Source of the DNA: Acidobacteriota bacterium
Lineage (GTDB): Bacteria; Acidobacteriota; Blastocatellia; Pyrinomonadales; Pyrinomonadaceae
Direction of reading: 5' to 3'
Assembly (NCBI GenBank): GCA_025463135.1
Contig: JAOAPY010000037.1
Location: forward strand, 1-64,000
DNA: 64,000 bases
In this document: positions 1,469 through 23,942 of the stretch, piece after piece
How positions within the stretch are numbered: position 1 is the first letter of the stretch
Layout of the letters: each line of letters starts with the position of its first letter
Made by a program: the position numbers and the translations under genes
Notes under the pieces: model-generated
Seen by the model: only the letters and a program-made list of their open reading frames with translations
The model's database searches: none
What the model was told of the DNA's origin: nothing

Positions 1469-1556
1469 GCATGCGTGGCTCGAGCAGCAAAGGCATCTGA
1501 CTGTAAATCAGAAGTCCTCCGGGACTACGTAGGTGCAAGTCCTACCGCATGCACCA
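1469..1556 (+). tRNA. tRNA-Tyr(GTA)
   Basis: The acceptor GCATGCG pairs with CGCATGC and is followed by A and an encoded CCA. The anticodon stem is TCTGA/TCAGA with loop CTGTAAA (anticodon GTA at 1503-1505). A long class II variable arm is present, as expected for bacterial tRNA-Tyr. It is the first gene of the array. Confidence 0.93.
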
Positions 1557-1670
1557 GCCGATTGAAGACTTCAGATTGCTGAGTGCGGATTGGTTCTTGC
1601 GCCGGAACACTCCCGCAAGCGAGCGAATCCTCCAATTCGCAATTCGCAATCCGCAATCCGAAATTCCTGC
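1557..1670. repeat. Inverted-repeat spacer (Tyr-Trp)
   Basis: The left arm carries GATTG/GACTTC words and the right arm carries iterated AATTCGC/AATCCG words that are broadly complementary. The centre is TTCTTGCGCCGG. The same architecture precedes tRNA-Tyr at 1395-1468. Confidence 0.6.
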
Positions 1671-1745
1671 GGGGATGTAGGCTAACCGGCAAACCATCGG
1701 TCTCCAAAATCGAGATTCTCGGTTCAAATCCGAGCGTCCCTGCCA
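1671..1745 (+). tRNA. tRNA-Trp(CCA)
   Basis: The acceptor GGGGATG/CGTCCCT is followed by G and an encoded CCA. The anticodon stem is TCGGT/ATCGA with loop CTCCAAA, anticodon CCA. The D arm is weak, with only about two or three pairs, so this copy may be partly degenerate. Confidence 0.85.
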
Positions 1746-1754
1746 ACTATCTAT

Positions 1755-1842
1755 GGAAGGCCCGACAGCAGAGTGAGTCAAGCAGTCTTGAAAACTGCGG
1801 CGGCTTAGACCGTGTAGGGTTCGACTCCCTAGCCTTCCGCCA
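1755..1842 (+). tRNA. tRNA-Ser(TGA)
   Basis: The acceptor GGAAGGC/GCCTTCC is followed by G and CCA. The anticodon loop CTTGAAA gives TGA, and a long class II variable arm is present. It lies 9 nt after tRNA-Trp and 4 nt before the next tRNA-Ser. Confidence 0.92.
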
Positions 1843-1846
1843 TTTT

Positions 1847-1932
1847 GGAGATGTCGCCTAATTGGCATGGCAGCACCCCGCTAAGGTGTCGGGAGAAATC
1901 CTGTGAGCGTTCGACTCGCTCCATCTCCGCCA
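1847..1932 (+). tRNA. tRNA-Ser(GCT)
   Basis: The acceptor GGAGATG/CATCTCC is followed by G and CCA. The anticodon loop CGCTAAG gives GCT, and a class II variable arm is present. It sits only 4 nt after the CCA of tRNA-Ser(TGA), so the two must be cut from one precursor. Confidence 0.92.
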
Positions 1933-2039
1933 GAGCATTGCCGATTCCAATTCCGAATGCCAATTGGAGTCCACAGAAAAAGTCTTGTTGGAAAGCCAAA
2001 TCGTACTCGGCGATTGGCAATGCCAATCGAAAATGTCCG

Positions 2040-2117
2040 GGGCCTGTAGCTCAGCGGAATAAGAGCGGATGACTACGAATCATCAGGTCGCTGGTTCAAA
2101 TCCAGCTAGGCCCACCA
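2040..2117 (+). tRNA. tRNA-Arg(ACG)
   Basis: The acceptor GGGCCTG/TAGGCCC is followed by A and CCA. The anticodon loop CTACGAA gives ACG, which would need TadA deamination to inosine to read all of CGU/C/A. The T arm is GCTGG/CCAGC. It follows an inverted-repeat spacer of CCAATT/GGCAAT words (1933-2039). Confidence 0.92.
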
Positions 2118-2211
2118 ATCGAAAGGATGAAGGAAAAAGGATGAGGGATGGAGAAAGCAGGCGATGCGGCTTGCTTTCATCCTTCAGCCTTCATGTTTCA
2201 TCCTTGGTTTT

Positions 2212-2289
2212 GCCGGCGTAGCCCAAATGGAATGAGGCGCTAGTCTTAGAAACTAGAGCGTGGGGGTTCAAATCCCTCCGCCGGTACCA
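2212..2289 (+). tRNA. tRNA with anticodon TAG (Leu codon CUA) but a short variable loop
   Basis: The acceptor GCCGGCG/CGCCGGT is followed by A and CCA. The anticodon stem CTAGT/ACTAG encloses CTTAGAA (anticodon TAG at 2247-2249). Only five bases (AGCGT) separate the anticodon stem from the T stem GGGGG/CCCTC, so it is class I in shape. Bacterial tRNA-Leu normally has a long variable arm, so charging by LeuRS is uncertain. The spacer before it (2118-2211) is an inverted repeat of AAGGATGA/TCATCCTT words. Confidence 0.85.
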
Positions 2290-2373
2290 GATTGATTTCG
2301 GATTTCGGATCGCGGATTTCAGATTCCGCAATCCGAATTTCGCAATCCGAAATCGTCATCCCACAATCAGTAA

Positions 2374-2451
2374 GCGCGTGTAGCCCAAATGGTAGAGGCG
2401 GCTGACTTAAGATCAGCTTTGTGATGAGTTCAAATCTCTCCACGCGCACCA
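2374..2451 (+). tRNA. tRNA with anticodon TAA (Leu codon UUA) but a short variable loop
   Basis: The acceptor GCGCGTG/CACGCGC is followed by A and CCA. The anticodon stem GCTGA/TCAGC encloses CTTAAGA, anticodon TAA at 2408-2410. The variable region is short. The T stem is poor: only three of five pairs form around TTCAAAT. This is either a decayed copy or a non-standard tRNA. The preceding spacer (2290-2373) is an inverted repeat of CGGATT/AATCCG words. Confidence 0.8.
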
Positions 2452-2472
2452 GATGATTTCAGAGAGCGGAGT

Positions 2473-2549
2473 GGGGACGAACGCGAAATGGAAAGCGGGT
2501 TGACCTTCAATCAACTGATTTGCGAGTTCGAGTCTCGTCGTCCCCGCCA
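2473..2549 (+). tRNA. tRNA-Glu(TTC)
   Basis: The acceptor GGGGACG/CGTCCCC is followed by G and CCA. The anticodon stem GTTGA/TCAAC encloses CCTTCAA, anticodon TTC. It lies 21 nt after the previous tRNA and is followed by an inverted-repeat spacer of GAAGGATGA/TCATCCTTC words (2550-2694). Confidence 0.92.
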
Positions 2550-2694
2550 ACTCAAAAAGATGAAGTAGGAAGGATGAATAAAGCACGACTCTTATCCTTC
2601 ATCCTTCCACCCGGGAGCGAATGCTGAACGTGACTACATCCTGGAAATGTGTCCGTCACGCTCTATTTCTTGTCGCCCCTTCATCCTTGATTCT

Positions 2695-2772
2695 GTGGGT
2701 CGTAGCTCAATCAGGCAGAGCACCGCACTGTGACTGCGGCCATTGAGGGTTCGACTCCCTTCGACCCACCCA
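2695..2772 (+). tRNA. tRNA-His(GTG)
   Basis: The acceptor has the extra G at position -1 (2695) opposite C73, the His identity element, followed by TGGGTCG/CGACCCA and CCA. The anticodon stem CCGCA/TGCGG encloses CTGTGAC, anticodon GTG. Confidence 0.93.
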
Positions 2773-2783
2773 ACTTCAACCAG

Positions 2784-2897
2784 AAAGGAGGACCGTCAAT
2801 GTTCATAAATAATGACTATCAAGGAGGTAAACCAACATGAAGCAATAACGAACCCGCTGCCGCAATACCTGTAGGCAGCTTAGAAAGGAAAGACGTA
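2784..2897 (+). promoter_or_regulatory. Leader with two mini-ORFs, strong ribosome-binding sites and a hairpin
   Basis: AAAGGAGG (2784-2791) precedes a 13-codon ORF at 2799-2840. Inside it AAGGAGG (2821-2827) precedes a second ORF, ATG-AAG-CAA-TAA (2837-2848), whose start overlaps the first stop as ATGA. A GCTGCC/GGCAGC hairpin follows, then AAAGGAAAG ahead of the ATG at 2898. The layout resembles a translation-coupled leader. No regulator can be named from sequence. Confidence 0.5.
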
Positions 2898-3314
2898 ATG
2901 AGCGAAGAAGTAACCACGCGGTATCATGTGCGACGCCGCGAATTTCTCAACGCAGATCCGGACTTGCCTGCGTTCATCATCGGTATCGTCGAAGATACCC
3001 GCACGATTCCCGACGACGATCCCAAACAACGCTGGCATGACGGAACGATAAACCTCGATCTGGCAGACTGCTATCGGCGAGTCTCGTTCTGCTTTTACAT
3101 GTCCGACGCTGAAGAACGGGCGAACAGCCTGCAGAAGATTTCCCTGATCGCGGAAGTTGTAAACGCTGTGCGCGATGCAATTGCCCTGGAAGTCGAATCG
3201 ATAAATGCACGGCCGGCCAAAACGGTGCCGGTCCAAACTGAAACCGAGCCTGCGAAAACCAGCGAGTCGCAGGCTCCGGTCTTCACGTCCTACATAACAA
3301 CGCTGGGGCTGTAG
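2898..3314 (+). CDS. Protein of unknown function (138 aa) inside the tRNA array
   Basis: I do not recognise the family. The start ATG follows AAAGGAAAG at a normal distance. Residues 1-105 look like a compact globular domain, with a helical stretch around residues 75-100 (sequence NSLQKISLIAEVVNAVRDAI). The last 30 residues are Pro/Thr/Glu-rich and probably disordered. There is no signal peptide or membrane segment, so a cytoplasmic protein is expected. The stop codon TAG (3312-3314) lies inside tRNA-Asp, which starts at 3305, so the mRNA end and the tRNA overlap by 10 nt. Its place between tRNA-His and tRNA-Asp, just before rtcB, suggests a role in the same RNA-related island, but that is context only. 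Confidence 0.7.
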   Translation: MSEEVTTRYHVRRREFLNADPDLPAFIIGIVEDTRTIPDDDPKQRWHDGTINLDLADCYRRVSFCFYMSDAEERANSLQKISLIAEVVNAVRDAIALEVESINARPAKTVPVQTETEPAKTSESQAPVFTSYITTLGL

Positions 3315-3382
3315 CTTAGTTGGATCAAAGCGCTGCACTGTCGATGCAGAGATCGCGAGTTCAAGTCTCGTCAGCCCCGCCA
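3305..3382 (+). tRNA. tRNA-Asp(GTC)
   Basis: The acceptor GGGGCTG/CAGCCCC is followed by G and CCA. The anticodon stem CTGCA/TGCAG encloses CTGTCGA, anticodon GTC. The first 10 nt overlap the 3' end of the preceding CDS. RNase P cleavage to make the tRNA would remove the end of that mRNA. Confidence 0.93.
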
Positions 3383-3445
3383 ATAAAACGCGATCAATTG
3401 GAAATCGGCGATGGGAACTCGCAAATCACCTGGCGCATCAACTCA

Positions 3446-3562
3446 GTCCGACAAACTTCAGTTTGTCGTAACTTTACCAAAAAGCTGCCAACCCGCAATC
3501 ATCGCCACAACCCATGGCTGGCGGCCCCTATGCCACAATCGACAAACTGAAGTTTGTCGGAC
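3446..3562. repeat. Paired palindromic repeat CGACAAACTnnAGTTTGTCG
   Basis: Copies at 3446-3468 (GTCCGACAAACTTCAGTTTG...) and 3540-3562 are reverse complements of each other, and each is itself a palindrome. The pair forms a large hairpin just upstream of rtcB. Members of the same family occur at 5268-5352, 8113-8190, 31222-31283, 49361-49420 and 55201-55281. Confidence 0.8.
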
Positions 3563-3585
3563 ATTCTCAAGAAAGGAGGAACACA

Positions 3586-4764
3586 ATGCCTTACGAAAAG
3601 CTAACCATTGGTGGTGCTCACCGGGAAATTCTTTCCTGGGCCAATCACGGATTCAGCATTGAAGAGCAATCGATGCTGCGCAATGTTTCGCGTTTGCCCT
3701 GCTTGTTCAAGCACGTCGCGCTAATGCCCGACGCTCACTTGGGAAAGGGCAGCATGGTCGGTTCGGTCGTGGCCACCAAGGCAGCAGTCATTCCGGCGAC
3801 CGTGGGCGTGGATATAGGGTGCGGCATGATGGCCGTGAAGACCCCTTTCAAGAGCGGCATCCTCGACGGCAAGCTGAAAGATCTGCGACTGGCGATTGAA
3901 GAAGCAATTCCAGTCGGCTTCAGCGCCTACAAGGAGTCGGTTGACGAATCTTCGCGGTGGGACGGCTGGAGCGACTTTTACGAACTGCACAAGGGCGTGC
4001 ACGATCGCAAGAAGAGAGCGATGACTCAACTGGGCACGCTGGGTGGCGGCAACCACTTCATCGAAGTTTGTCTGGACACGGAAAACTCGGTTTGGTTGAT
4101 GCTGCATTCCGGCTCGCGCAACATTGGCAAGGAACTTGCCGAACGTCACATCGCAACCGCCAAAGGTTTGTGGCAGTTGTCGGACCTTCCGTCACCTGAT
4201 CTGGCTTACTTCATCCAGGGCACGCCGGAGTTTGCGGCGTACTGGAAAGACCTGAAGTGGGCGCAGGGCTACGCGATGAAGAACCGTGAAATCATGATGA
4301 CGCGTCTGTTGCAGGTCTTCAACAAGATGTTCAATCATCGCCTGGCGTTTCGTCCGGAACTGGCGGTCAACTGTCATCACAACTACGTTGCGCTGGAGCG
4401 TCACTATGACGAAGAAGTATTCGTGACGCGCAAAGGTGCAATCAATGCTGATAAGGATACATACGGCATCATTCCTGGTTCGATGGGTGCTAAATCATTC
4501 ATCGTCCAGGGTCGCGGGGCCGCTGAGAGTTTTAACTCCTGCTCTCACGGCGCCGGACGAAAGATGTCACGCGGCGCGGCCAAGCGGGCCTTTAGCAAGG
4601 ACGATTTGGAGCGTCAGACTTCAGGAGTTGAATGTCGCAAGGACGTAGGCGTGCTGGACGAAATTCCCGGCGCCTACAAGGACATCAAGCAGGTGATGAG
4701 AAACCAGAGCGATCTGGTAAAGATCGTCGCCGAGTTGAAGCAAGTGGTCTGCGTTAAGGGATGA
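3586..4764 (+). CDS. rtcB: RNA-splicing ligase RtcB
   Basis: RtcB seals RNA with 2',3'-cyclic phosphate or 3'-phosphate ends to 5'-OH ends, using GTP and Mn2+, and repairs or splices tRNA. At 392 aa it is close to the E. coli enzyme (about 408). Family motifs are in order: VDIGCGM (D76, C79), GGGNHF (H157), HSGSRN (H174), NCHHN (H264-H265) and SHGAGR, where H321 is the expected guanylylated histidine. I chose ATG 3586 because it follows GAAAGGAGG at 3571-3579; an in-frame extension to 3514 would run through the palindromic repeat. No archease gene is visible nearby. Its place inside a tRNA array and 3.8 kb upstream of a Ro60 gene matches the known association of rtcB with rsr and Y RNA genes in proteobacteria. 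Cytoplasmic. Confidence 0.96.
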   Translation: MPYEKLTIGGAHREILSWANHGFSIEEQSMLRNVSRLPCLFKHVALMPDAHLGKGSMVGSVVATKAAVIPATVGVDIGCGMMAVKTPFKSGILDGKLKDLRLAIEEAIPVGFSAYKESVDESSRWDGWSDFYELHKGVHDRKKRAMTQLGTLGGGNHFIEVCLDTENSVWLMLHSGSRNIGKELAERHIATAKGLWQLSDLPSPDLAYFIQGTPEFAAYWKDLKWAQGYAMKNREIMMTRLLQVFNKMFNHRLAFRPELAVNCHHNYVALERHYDEEVFVTRKGAINADKDTYGIIPGSMGAKSFIVQGRGAAESFNSCSHGAGRKMSRGAAKRAFSKDDLERQTSGVECRKDVGVLDEIPGAYKDIKQVMRNQSDLVKIVAELKQVVCVKG

Positions 4765-4802
4765 AAGCCCACGCATAGACAAAGGACGCGGGGACTGGGT
4801 AG

Positions 4803-5161
4803 GAATTGCGGATTGCGAATTGCGAATTTCGAATTTGAAGAGGCCGCGGCAGATGCCAACATGGGGCCACCATTTATTGCCGCCTTCAGCAAATCCGCAA
4901 TTCGCAATCCGCAATCCGAAATTCTTATGCATCGTTGGTCCAGACGGTTCAAGACGCGGCGTTGCCTGCGCTGAGACACCGGTTCGATTCCGGTACGATG
5001 CTCCAATCAAGAATTGCGAATCAAGAATTGCGAATCAAGAATTGCGGATTGCGAATTTCGGATTGCGAATTCGAAGAGGCCGCGGCAGATGCCAACATGG
5101 GGCCACCATTTACTGCCGCCTTCAGCAAATCCGCAATTCGCAATCCGCAATCCGAAATTCT
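4803..5161. repeat. Duplicated 121-nt inverted-repeat spacer flanking tRNA-Gly(GCC)
   Basis: The segment 4803-4923 recurs almost unchanged at 5038-5161, with tRNA-Gly(GCC) between the two. Each copy has arms made of GATTGCGAATT-type words and a conserved centre that includes GAAGAGGCCGCGGCAGATGC. Three further GAATCAAGAATTGC iterations lie at 5006-5043. Confidence 0.85.
4929..5005 (+). tRNA. tRNA-Gly(GCC)
   Basis: The acceptor GCATCGT/ACGATGC is followed by T and CCA. The anticodon stem CGGCG/CGCTG encloses TTGCCTG, anticodon GCC. The T arm ACCGG/CCGGT is good and the D stem is weak at about three pairs. Confidence 0.87.
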
Positions 5162-5185
5162 CCCTGCCAGGAGTTCCAACCTCTC

Positions 5186-5260
5186 GCGGATGTGATGTAG
5201 CTGGAAACATGTGAGTCTTCCAAACTCGCTTCGAGAGTTCGAATCTCTCCATCCGCTCCA
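5186..5260 (+). tRNA. tRNA-Gly(TCC)
   Basis: The acceptor GCGGATG/CATCCGC is followed by T and CCA. The anticodon stem TGAGT/ACTCG encloses CTTCCAA, anticodon TCC. The T arm is GAGAG/CTCTC. Confidence 0.9.
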
Positions 5261-5267
5261 ATCAAAT

Positions 5268-5352
5268 GTCCGACAAACTTCAGTTTGTCGTCGTTCCCCT
5301 AAGAAACCTTCTTACGAAAACGTCGACAAGCTTTTAAAGCATGTCGGACATT
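5268..5352. repeat. Palindromic repeat pair (Gly-Cys spacer)
   Basis: A CGACAAACT-family palindrome at 5268-5290 faces a degenerate reverse copy ending in ATGTCGGACA (5325-5352). It forms the spacer between tRNA-Gly(TCC) and tRNA-Cys. Confidence 0.7.
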
Positions 5353-5360
5353 CAAGACAG

Positions 5361-5436
5361 GCACGCGTCGCCAAGCGGCTAAGGCGCCGGATTGCAGATC
5401 CGGTATTCGTGAGTTCGAGTCTCACCGCGTGCTCCA
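5361..5436 (+). tRNA. tRNA-Cys(GCA)
   Basis: The acceptor GCACGCG/CGCGTGC is followed by T and CCA. The anticodon stem CCGGA/TCCGG encloses TTGCAGA, anticodon GCA. The T arm is GTGAG/CTCAC. Confidence 0.93.
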
Positions 5437-5850
5437 ATCTACCAGCCGCGTAGCGGCGAAATGTTTATAGACCCAAGCCGACAAAAATGCTCTCCAGCTC
5501 CGTCAGGAGCGAAATACTCATCCGCCCATGACTAAAGGACATTAAGAAGATGTCTGGGGCGATAAACATTTCGTGCCTACGGCACTGAAGACGCGCATGA
5601 ACTTTGGTGAGGAACCGAAGACGCGCGCTGCTGACGCGAAAACAGTTTCACCTTCAGGAGCGGTGACTCGCACCTTGCGAGTCGTACCTCACAACCGCTC
5701 TTGAATAAATCCACTCGCCACAGATGACCACAGATAAAAACGGATTGGCAAAACAACGCTGGGCCATATTCATCGTCAACTGCCTGCATCGTTCTTATCC
5801 GTCCTTATCAGTGTCCATCTGGGGCCAAATCCAACGAAAGGAGGTGCCGG
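5437..5850. other. Intergenic stretch between tRNA-Cys and the HNH gene
   Basis: I see no tRNA and no convincing CDS in these 414 nt. The longest ORFs lack a ribosome-binding site until the HNH start. Fragments such as CACAGATGACCACAG resemble low-level dispersed repeats (a similar word lies near 52190). Confidence 0.5.
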
Positions 5851-5853
5851 GTG

Positions 5854-6432
5854 ATGACTATCAACGGCCGAGTACTGCTACTCAATCAAACTTACGAACC
5901 GCTCGGCACCGTCAGCGTGGCCCGGGCAATCATCATGACGTTCAAGAACAGCGTCTATGTCGAGGAGTGGGACGGCGACCGCGTGCTGCGTTCGGCGCAT
6001 GATGAATTTCCTGTGCCGTCGGTAATTCGCCGGCGCACTTACATTAATATTCGTCGCCGCCGTGCGGCTGCGGGGATGAAGCGCCTGCGAATTTACATGC
6101 GCGACAAGTTCCGTTGCCAGTACTGCGGTGAAAAGAAAGCAGCCACCGCGCTGACCCTGGACCACATCATGCCGCGTTCGCGCGGTGGTGATAATGCTCC
6201 AGTTAACATCGTCGCGGCTTGCATCAAGTGCAACACGCGCAAGGGCAATCGCACGCCCGAAGAAGCACGCATGCCTTTGCTGACCTCGCAATCGGCACTG
6301 CGTGTGAAGCTCGAACGCGTCGTGCTTTGCCACTATGCCGAGGCCCGCAGCGAGTGGCGCAAGTACCTGTTCATGGATGTGCATGACGATCGGGACATCA
6401 TGGAGAAGGTGCGGCGGGAAGAACGGGCTTAG
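5854..6432 (+). CDS. HNH endonuclease
   Basis: A 192-aa protein of the common stand-alone HNH family whose N-terminus reads V/LLLNQTYEPLG. The HNH core lies at about residues 87-140: a zinc pair CQYC, the catalytic LTLDHIMPRSRGGDN (H104), and a second zinc pair CIKC followed by NTRKGNRTPEEA. Such proteins cut DNA with a single divalent metal; the specific target of this family is not known to me. The start is ATG 5854 or the adjacent GTG 5851, with AAAGGAGG at 5837-5844. It lies between tRNA-Cys and tRNA-Phe and has the same strong ribosome-binding site as rtcB and the 2799 leader ORF. It could act as a homing-type nuclease that moves the array, or be a cargo gene. Confidence 0.92.
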   Translation: MTINGRVLLLNQTYEPLGTVSVARAIIMTFKNSVYVEEWDGDRVLRSAHDEFPVPSVIRRRTYINIRRRRAAAGMKRLRIYMRDKFRCQYCGEKKAATALTLDHIMPRSRGGDNAPVNIVAACIKCNTRKGNRTPEEARMPLLTSQSALRVKLERVVLCHYAEARSEWRKYLFMDVHDDRDIMEKVRREERA

Positions 6433-6556
6433 ACCGTAATTGGCCTTGGCCTTTGGTCTTTGGTTTTTGTCAGCGTTTGGGAGCGACTAGCCTGGGAGGA
6501 TCTCTCAAACTAAAGAACCACAAACAGTCAAAGACCGAAGGCCAAAGACCAAATCC
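6433..6556. repeat. Inverted-repeat spacer (HNH-Phe)
   Basis: The arms are iterated GGCCTTTGGTCTTTGG on the left and its complement CCGAAGGCCAAAGACC on the right, around a centre containing GGGAGCGACTAGCCTGGGAG. Confidence 0.75.
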
Positions 6557-6631
6557 GGTCGGATAGCTGAGATGGATTAGCGCGGGTTTGAAGAACCCGA
6601 AAGGTTGGTTCGATTCCAACTCCGACCGCCA
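6557..6631 (+). tRNA. tRNA-Phe(GAA)
   Basis: The acceptor GGTCGGA/TCCGACC is followed by G and CCA. The anticodon stem CGGGT/ACCCG encloses TTGAAGA, anticodon GAA. The T arm is GTTGG/CCAAC. Confidence 0.93.
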
Positions 6632-6805
6632 AGAGCAAGAATGAGGGACGAAGCTGAGGAAGAGCGACGCGGGAAGAAGGACACGGAGACGCGGAGACTG
6701 GGCGACACGGAGATGTTTGGCGCAGGACAATTCTTTCACCGCGTCTCCGCGTCTCACAATCTCCGCGTCGGTTCTTCATCCTTCATCCTTCATCCTTTGA
6801 TTATC
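6632..6805. repeat. Inverted-repeat spacer (Phe-Val)
   Basis: The left side has GACACGGAGACGCGGAGAC words and the right side has the complementary CGCGTCTCC words, then TTCATCCTTCATCC. The same vocabulary returns in the spacers at 6882-7091 and 7558-7660. Confidence 0.7.
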
Positions 6806-21542: not shown

Positions 21543-23942
21543 ATGCACTTGCTGAATCATGTACCGTCATTCTCGATGGCAGCCGCGGCAGCGCTGGCTG
21601 AAAAATGTTACGGCATTCGCGCCACCGCAACGCCGTTGCCTGGTGAACGCGACCAAAACTTTCTGCTTTCAGTTTCTCCCGCCAAAAAGTATGTGCTCAA
21701 GATTGCCAATGCTCTCGAAGAGCGCGCTTTGCTCGAAGCACAAAACCAGGTTATGTCATATCTGGAAACGCGCCTCTCTTTTTGCCCGCGCATTTCCCCC
21801 AACCTTTCCGGCGAATCTCTGTCAGAAGTTGAATCGGCAAATGGAAGCGTTAACTTCGTACGCCTTGTGACGTATCTGCCAGGTGTGCCGCTGGCCGAAG
21901 TCAAACCACACTCGCCGTCGTTGCTGCAAAGCCTTGGGGAACGACTGGGTCAACTGGATCGAGAACTCGCAGCTTTCGATCATCCGGCACTTCATCGCAA
22001 CTTTCACTGGGACCTGGCGAACGCTGAACACATCATTCGTGAATACGCGCCGTTGGTCGCAGACGAACCGCTGCGACAAATCGTTTACCGCTGCAGGAAA
22101 GATTTCTCACGCCAGGTCAGCCCGTTGTTGTCGCAATTACGCCGCAGCGTGATTCACGGCGATGCCAACGACTATAACGTGCTCGTTCAATCTGGAGATG
22201 ATAGCTACGCGCGGCATCGGCATCCTGCGGAGGCACACGGGCAGGATGCCCGTGCCACGTCGGTAAGCGGAATCATCGATTTTGGAGACCTGGTCCACAG
22301 CTATACAGTTGGCGATCTCGCGGTTGCCATCGCTTACGTGGTTCTGGACAAGGACGATCCGCTCGCCGCCGTGGCGCCGCTCGTCGCCGGCTACGCACGA
22401 GAACATTCGCTCAGTGAAATCGAGATCAACGCACTCTATGGTTTGGTACTCATGCGCCTGTGCATGAGTGTTTGCCTGGCGGCTTATCAACATCGGCAAC
22501 GGCCCGACAATGACTACTTAAGGATTAGTCAGCGTTCAATCATAGACAGTTTGCCCGGGCTCGCGGCGATTGATTGGAGTCAGGCGGCCGCCGCATTCCA
22601 TGATGCCTGCAATCAAACGGAAAGCAATCAAACAGTTGGGAATGAAAGCGCGGCCACCCTGGCGGCGCGGCGAAAATTGCTCGGACCAAATCTGAGCATC
22701 GCCTACCAGGAACCGATCAAGATCGTGCGCGGTTCGATGCAATACCTTTATGACGAAGATGGCCGTCAGTACCTCGACGCTTATAACAACGTAGCGCACG
22801 TCGGCCATTGCCGTCCGCGCATTGTCAAAGTCGGACAGGATCAAATGGCACTACTGAACACCAACACGCGTTACCTGCACGACTTGATTCTTCGCTATGC
22901 GGAACGACTCGCGGCAACTTTACCTGACTCGTTGAGTGTTTGTTTCTTTGTTAACTCGGGCAGCGAAGCAAACGAGCTGGCACTGCGATTGGCGCGCGCG
23001 CACACCGGCGGGCGCGATTTGCTTGTGTTGGACCATGCCTATCACGGGAACACCACGACGCTGATAGAAATTAGCCCCTACAAACATGATGGCCCGGGTG
23101 GCGCGGGCGCACCATCATGGGTACACAAGCTCCCGCTTCCAGATCTTTATCGCGGTCTGCACCGTTACGACGATCCGCAGGCCGCGGGAAAATACGCCGA
23201 ACACGCGGTCGAAGTGATCGCCGAATTGCGCGAGCGAGGCGTGGCCCTGTCAGGATTTATCGCCGAATCTTTGCCCAGCGTCGCCGGACAGATTGTCTTG
23301 CCCAGGGGTTATCTGGAGAAAGTGTATCGCGCGGTACGCGAGGCCGGCGGGGTCTGTATTGCGGACGAAGTGCAAACCGGCTACGGTCGAATAGGAACGC
23401 ACTTCTGGGGATTTGAGAGTTATGCAGTAGTTCCCGACATCGTCGTGCTCGGCAAACCCATCGGCAATGGACATCCCATCGGGGCCGTTATCACCACACC
23501 TGAGATTGCTTCATCATTCGCAAATGGCATGGAATTCTTCAGCACCTTTGGCGGCAACACCGTCTCGTGCGCAATCGGACTTGCCGTGCTCGATATTGTG
23601 CTGGAAGAGAATCTGCAAGCGCATGCTCTCAGCGTTGGCGAGATGATGCTTCAGGGCCTGCGCGACTTGCTGAGTAAGCATGAGATCATCGGCGACATCC
23701 GCGGCTCAGGCTTCTTCCTCGGCGCCGAATTGGTCAGCAACCGGGAAACACTTGTGCCCGCGAGCGCTGAAGCTGACGTCATTGTCAATCAAATGCGCCA
23801 AAGAGGAATACTCCTTGGCACCGATGGTCCCTTTCACAGCGTCCTCAAGATCCGTCCTCCGCTTCCCTTTTCCGCGAGCAATTCCGATCGCTTGATTTCC
23901 ACCCTGGACGACATTCTCTCGAACCTTCAAATTAGGGTGTAG
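21543..23942 (+). CDS. Phosphotransferase / class III aminotransferase fusion
   Basis: A 799-aa two-domain protein. Residues 1-340 form an APH-type kinase-like domain, with the catalytic loop [11 protein letters not shown] (H205) and the metal-binding DFG-like IIDFGD at about 244-249. Residues 350-799 form a class III PLP-dependent aminotransferase with [30 protein letters not shown], and the PLP lysine in [11 protein letters not shown] (K638). This domain order is known in proteins related to phospho-ethanolamine/hydroxylysine phospho-lyases, which suggests phosphorylation of an amino alcohol followed by PLP-dependent elimination or transamination. Residues of about 222-241 ([18 protein letters not shown]) are encoded by a dispersed repeat inserted in frame. 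Cytoplasmic. The start ATG 21543 gives an unbroken domain. Confidence 0.88.

Follow-up and report, generated by a model that had tools for sequence, protein, structure and literature searches.

Short-armed leucine tRNAs in a tRNA array next to RtcB, Ro60 and YrlA in an Acidobacteriota bacterium

The window, i.e., the whole 64,000-nt stretch of DNA from this soil bacterium that was analyzed, carries near its start an array of 23 tRNA genes (1469–8286), all on the plus strand, with about one gene per isoacceptor and U34 in most four-codon boxes. The 6.48-Mb genome yielded 66 tRNA matches, about 43 of them outside the array; the 23 clustered genes, where at least 20 define a long array of the Anabaena type, thus come in addition to the housekeeping set. 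Nearly all of them encode the CCA end. The array is incomplete, as no tRNA-Pro gene was found and tRNA-Gln(UUG) (8277–8349, plus strand) is a 5'-truncated remnant joined to a gene with a UAU anticodon; the Gln gene is intact in the related locus L070 of another genus. The tRNA-Ser(UGA) and tRNA-Ser(GCU) genes (1755–1932, plus strand) have long variable arms of 16 and 15 nt, respectively. Also on the plus strand are a 138-aa open reading frame without assigned family (2898–3314), which is conserved at 39–60% beside the arrays of several relatives, the sole RtcB RNA ligase gene of the genome (3586–4764), an HNH endonuclease gene (5851–6432) of a kind that adjoins many tRNA arrays, and a Ro60/Rsr gene encoding a TROVE plus a vWA domain (8570–10144). 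They are followed by a YrlA-type Y RNA with a tRNA-like domain (10476–10611, plus strand), which matches the family over its full length with 60 bits (E 3.9e-13) and lies below the Rfam gathering score of 69 in the window, but above it in L055 and L060. Rsr, YrlA, and RtcB are therefore found in one locus, as is characteristic of an rsr-yrl-rtc operon. A second, weak YrlA-like stretch was noticed at 10230–10333, and both YrlA-like stretches are conserved in L070.

Upstream of the array, a non-coding stretch (895–1102, no strand assigned) is 83% identical to L070 and possibly represents a leader, promoter, or control element; it gave no convincing Rfam match. The promoter scan revealed nothing above chance, and terminator-like sites on the plus strand within the array were no more frequent than expected by chance. 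It is possible that the array is read as one long transcript. Neither RtcR nor RtcA was found in the host genome, so that the known regulator and its partner are missing for this array and control by RtcR/RtcA can be ruled out.

Two array genes on the plus strand, tRNA-Leu(UAG) (2212–2289, 57.3 bits) and tRNA-Leu(UAA) (2374–2451, 49.1 bits), were assigned in agreement by ARAGORN and Rfam. An earlier note on this DNA had described their variable regions as being of the five-base type, which was confirmed by the cloverleaf fit with AGCGT (5 nt) for Leu(UAG) and TTTGTG (6 nt) for Leu(UAA), whereby all variable-region lengths reported here are the output of one automatic fit. Both genes present a leucine anticodon within a full cloverleaf, encode CCA, and have A73, and both lack the long arm of class II tRNAs that is expected for bacterial tRNA-Leu. 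The anticodon stem, the variable region, and the T arm use up every base, which rules out an overlooked long arm, the finding that according to the earlier note would have overturned the observation. Leu(UAG) forms five of five T-stem pairs, one of them G-U, and carries A14, A15-U48, GGNA, and C2:G71. The T stem of Leu(UAA) is weak, as had been noted before, since only three of the five pairs of ATGAG/CTCTC form, and U48 is lost. Because of these two defects, Leu(UAA) of this genome is probably a decaying copy rather than a tRNA with a special function. When the two tRNAs were folded singly by free energy, the z-scores were weak (-1.5 and -1.7) and the fold was not purely a cloverleaf, so that this says little either way.

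The earlier note had considered the short region anomalous for a bacterial tRNA-Leu and had proposed a comparison with the chromosomal genes. The five chromosomal tRNA-Leu genes of the same genome (CAA, UAG, UAA, CAG, and GAG) are indeed all long, with variable regions of 13–16 nt. With the chromosomal UAA gene as query, homologues were obtained from 35 of 36 genomes, and in the 23 homologues that could be measured the variable region spans 13–17 nt. Thus, housekeeping tRNA-Leu genes do not as a rule have the short form, and the possibility that it is normal in this phylum fails for the chromosomal genes. It does hold for the arrays, where a short variable region is normal for the leucine tRNAs: after removal of identical sequences, 36 of the 42 Leu-anticodon tRNAs from Blastocatellia arrays are short-armed (3–6 nt), whereas long arms are present in 21 of 22 tRNA-Ser and in 12 of 12 tRNA-Tyr; these counts cover related sequences, so that statistics based on them overstate independence. 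Exceptions exist also within Blastocatellia, e.g., a long Leu(GAG) in one clade. Beyond this class, short arms were observed for 25 of 30 leucine tRNAs on viral contigs that had been found through RtcB or Ro60, and, in Nostocales, for all 12 carried by six plasmid arrays of the Anabaena trn type, while Pseudarthrobacter contributed one short and Mycolicibacterium two long forms. The arrays surveyed are those reached via RtcB, Ro60, or HNH, and the phage comparison left out mycobacteriophage cluster C1, so that the frequencies apply to this sample and not to all phage tRNA arrays. Taken as such, the arrays reveal that tRNA-Leu without a long arm forms a large class in bacteria and phages. As a side observation, the chromosomal tRNA-Leu(UAA) genes of L281, L282, L286, L288, L290, and L292 contain apparent introns of a few hundred bases.

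Across the 36 short-armed leucine genes from Blastocatellia, 704 of 720 stem cells are paired, compared to a mean of 502 and a maximum of 524 after shuffling, a statistic that is inflated by the relatedness of the sequences. For many of the stem pairs, between four and six of the standard types occur. Leu(UAG) of the window is 90% identical to its counterpart in L070, and Leu(UAG), Val, Ala, and Thr together range from 90 to 95%, although most of the spacers cannot be aligned. Since Leu(UAG) is kept at this level amid diverged spacers and the stem pairs covary, the short form is not a product of chance.

Concerning aminoacylation, the determinants described for Escherichia coli LeuRS are A73, A15-U48, G18G19, and A20a; the long arm is dispensable for this enzyme, arm-less variants stay active, and human mitochondrial LeuRS accepts tRNA without a long arm as well (PMC9976931). 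SerRS, in contrast, depends on the long arm (PMC7609411), and C2:G71 acts as an element against SerRS (PMC9976931). A73 is present in 80 of 80 array leucine tRNAs over all groups, including 42 of 42 within Blastocatellia. The combination of A73, A14, A15-U48, and GGNA, which follows the E. coli LeuRS determinants, occurs in all five chromosomal tRNA-Leu genes and in 28 of the 36 short array genes, compared to 19 of 142 other A73 array tRNAs with normal variable-region length; A15-U48 by itself is frequent among array tRNAs in general. The corresponding counts for C2:G71 are 35/36 versus 18/142. In the window, Leu(UAG) has the entire determinant set, whereas Leu(UAA) misses U48. The host genome contains a single full LeuRS gene, and a second one can be ruled out, as the other hits of the LeuRS model are short and weak, with scores under its cut-off. 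Judged from these sequence features, the short leucine tRNAs are most likely usable, true leucine tRNAs that are charged by the single LeuRS. The restriction of the arm loss to leucine fits this, because SerRS is published as arm-dependent and LeuRS as arm-independent, and it is the pattern that would be expected if LeuRS alone can dispense with the arm. Other isotypes of the Blastocatellia arrays retain their identity elements as well, namely G3:U70 in tRNA-Ala (13/13), C73 in tRNA-His (16/16, with G-1 in 14 of 16), U73 in tRNA-Cys (17/17), and G73 in tRNA-Asn plus tRNA-Asp (33/33) and in tRNA-Ser (21/22).

On balance, we favor, with reasonable though far from complete confidence, the reading that the short-armed genes encode genuine leucine tRNAs belonging to a reserve set within an RNA-repair island, to be charged by the host upon damage or blockage. 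Its observed basis comprises the anatomy, conservation, and covariation of the genes, the retained identity elements, and the one LeuRS; what we infer is the charging with leucine, an induction under damage or translational stress, and why the arm was lost. The array would constitute a second, near-minimal tRNA set within an island of RtcB, Ro60, YrlA RNA, and HNH. Damage to housekeeping tRNAs or a block in translation would lead to its transcription, and host synthetases would charge its products and thereby replace the lost tRNAs, while RtcB would reseal cut tRNAs and Ro60/YrlA would deal with damaged RNA. The leucine members could have shed the long arm since it is dispensable for bacterial LeuRS; SerRS and TyrRS require it, which would be why the serine and tyrosine members keep it. 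A near-complete spare set tied to Ro60/YrlA/RtcB repair genes would make the role of Ro60 and RtcB in bacteria directly testable.

Several known systems resemble parts of this arrangement. The trn operon of Anabaena PCC 7120 likewise provides 20–30 extra tRNA genes with about one per isoacceptor; it is silent until antibiotics that target translation induce it, and it favors survival (PMC10272220). The six Nostocales plasmid arrays, which are relatives of the PCC 7120 array and do not include PCC 7120 itself, share with the window an adjoining HNH gene and short Leu tRNAs, in the plasmid arrays with the anticodons UAA, UAG, and CAA. The Anabaena trn type differs in being plasmid-borne, in having no Ro60 seen adjoining it, and in that rtcB lies elsewhere, in the TrcR regulon. 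The rsr-yrlBA-rtcBA RNA repair operon of Salmonella, which senses cut tRNAs, also combines Rsr, YrlA RNA, and RtcB (PMC7790460), but the window adds the tRNA array and its genome is without RtcA and RtcR. Phage tRNAs save phages from tRNA-cutting defenses (PMC11555353, PMC10264068), and phage arrays with RtcB or Ro60 (Myxococcus phage Mx1 and IMG/VR contigs) have short Leu tRNAs like the window, and some of those beside RtcB or Ro60 also share long-armed UAU tRNAs; they differ in that they are phage-carried, in part lack the encoded CCA, and mostly show no Ro60 within the sequence that was read. Animal mitochondrial tRNA-Leu also combines a short variable region with specification of leucine by A73 and A14 (PMC9976931), although it belongs to an organelle with its own LeuRS, and no common ancestry is implied.

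The link of the array to RtcB, Ro60, and the tRNA-like YrlA, an RNA suggested as a possible nuclease inhibitor (PMC7790460), would also be in line with a non-translational role, in which the tRNAs are sacrificial substrates of anticodon nucleases or ligands of Ro60/RtcB. Such decoys would need the fold and the anticodon loop but no charging. The retention of A73, G3:U70, G-1:C73, U73, and G73 in the respective isotypes is needless for them, as is the CCA that almost every gene of the window array encodes, and we regard this explanation as unlikely. Much the same, with slightly less weight, applies to the idea that the array came from a phage or plasmid, has no present role, and survives as decaying remnants. 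The truncated Gln gene, the Pro gene that was not found, the poor T stem of Leu(UAA), the patchy distribution with Ro60 in 20 of 60 relatives, and the occurrence of the same tRNA forms in phages point in this direction, but the identity of Leu(UAG), Val, Ala, and Thr to another genus despite diverged spacers and the covariation of the stems argue against it.

The earlier note had suspected poor charging, charging by another synthetase, a missense or specialized role, or no use in translation. In line with a tRNA that has a leucine anticodon and recodes because it receives another amino acid or is poorly charged, the class II arm is lost, the D arm (TAGCCCAA..GAGGC) is unlike that of the chromosomal leucine tRNAs, and nearest-neighbor ancestry tracing over the whole body finds a tRNA-Leu as closest host tRNA for only 13 of the 36 short forms. 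However, retention is selective for the leucine determinants and for the anti-SerRS pair, the genome has one ordinary LeuRS gene, of a kind that in E. coli is arm-independent, and no synthetase was recognized among the window proteins scanned. These suspicions have thus become less likely, and we consider recoding by the short-armed tRNAs highly improbable, the most so of all readings weighed here.

The gene at 8194–8286 (plus strand), to which the Gln remnant is joined, has a UAU anticodon, a long variable arm (25 nt), A73, and a leucine identity core, but no CCA. Such long-armed UAU tRNAs (22–25 nt) were found in eight Blastocatellia arrays and on three phage contigs. Loci noted for such a tRNA with A73 are the window, L070, L074, L076, L084, L085, L086, L168, L182, and L188. 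A73, A14, A15-U48, and GGNA are present in the eight Blastocatellia tRNAs and are mostly missing in the phage ones. Allo-tRNAs are defined by an 8/4 or 9/3 acceptor branch together with serine identity. The UAU gene is not one of them, as its position 73 is A and all pairs form when a 7/5 branch is fitted. It is possible, from its sequence, that the UAU tRNA has leucine identity. If LeuRS charges it, leucine would be placed at AUA (Ile) codons when the array is switched on. The array might then swap classes, with short-armed leucine tRNAs beside a LeuRS-charged long-armed UAU tRNA and stress-induced leucine at AUA, whereby the short-armed forms could escape nucleases that recognize long-armed tRNAs. 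We hold this for quite improbable; if true, a mobile tRNA set would perform stress-induced recoding. The nematode nev-tRNA-Ile(UAU) also combines a long arm with a UAU anticodon, but it is eukaryotic; its charging with leucine has been shown in vitro (PMC4300185). Separately, L077, L104, and L105 contain a long-armed tRNA with a Trp anticodon (CCA; variable region of 20–22 nt) and a body resembling that of the UAU tRNA; in L077, G73 was read.

Related arrays were found across Blastocatellia, and a tRNA array adjoins most of the Ro60 loci in the 20 related genomes. A broader scan covered 75 Ro60 loci. Arrays were present in acidobacterial ones and in a small number from Verrucomicrobia; in most other phyla, no array accompanies Ro60. 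In 12 relatives, the YrlA RNA family was detected beside Ro60 with one or two exceptions. The HNH gene beside the array and the patchy distribution suggest that the array is mobile. Elsewhere in the host genome (L001), ARAGORN called a 332-nt intron-containing tRNA-Arg (G000:C17, near 21938–22011), which may be spurious. Furthermore, the 3'-terminal 58 nt of the chromosomal tRNA-Leu(UAA) recur without any change at G000:C49:103841–103898, about 2.7 kb away from the gene, as would be left by an integrated element.
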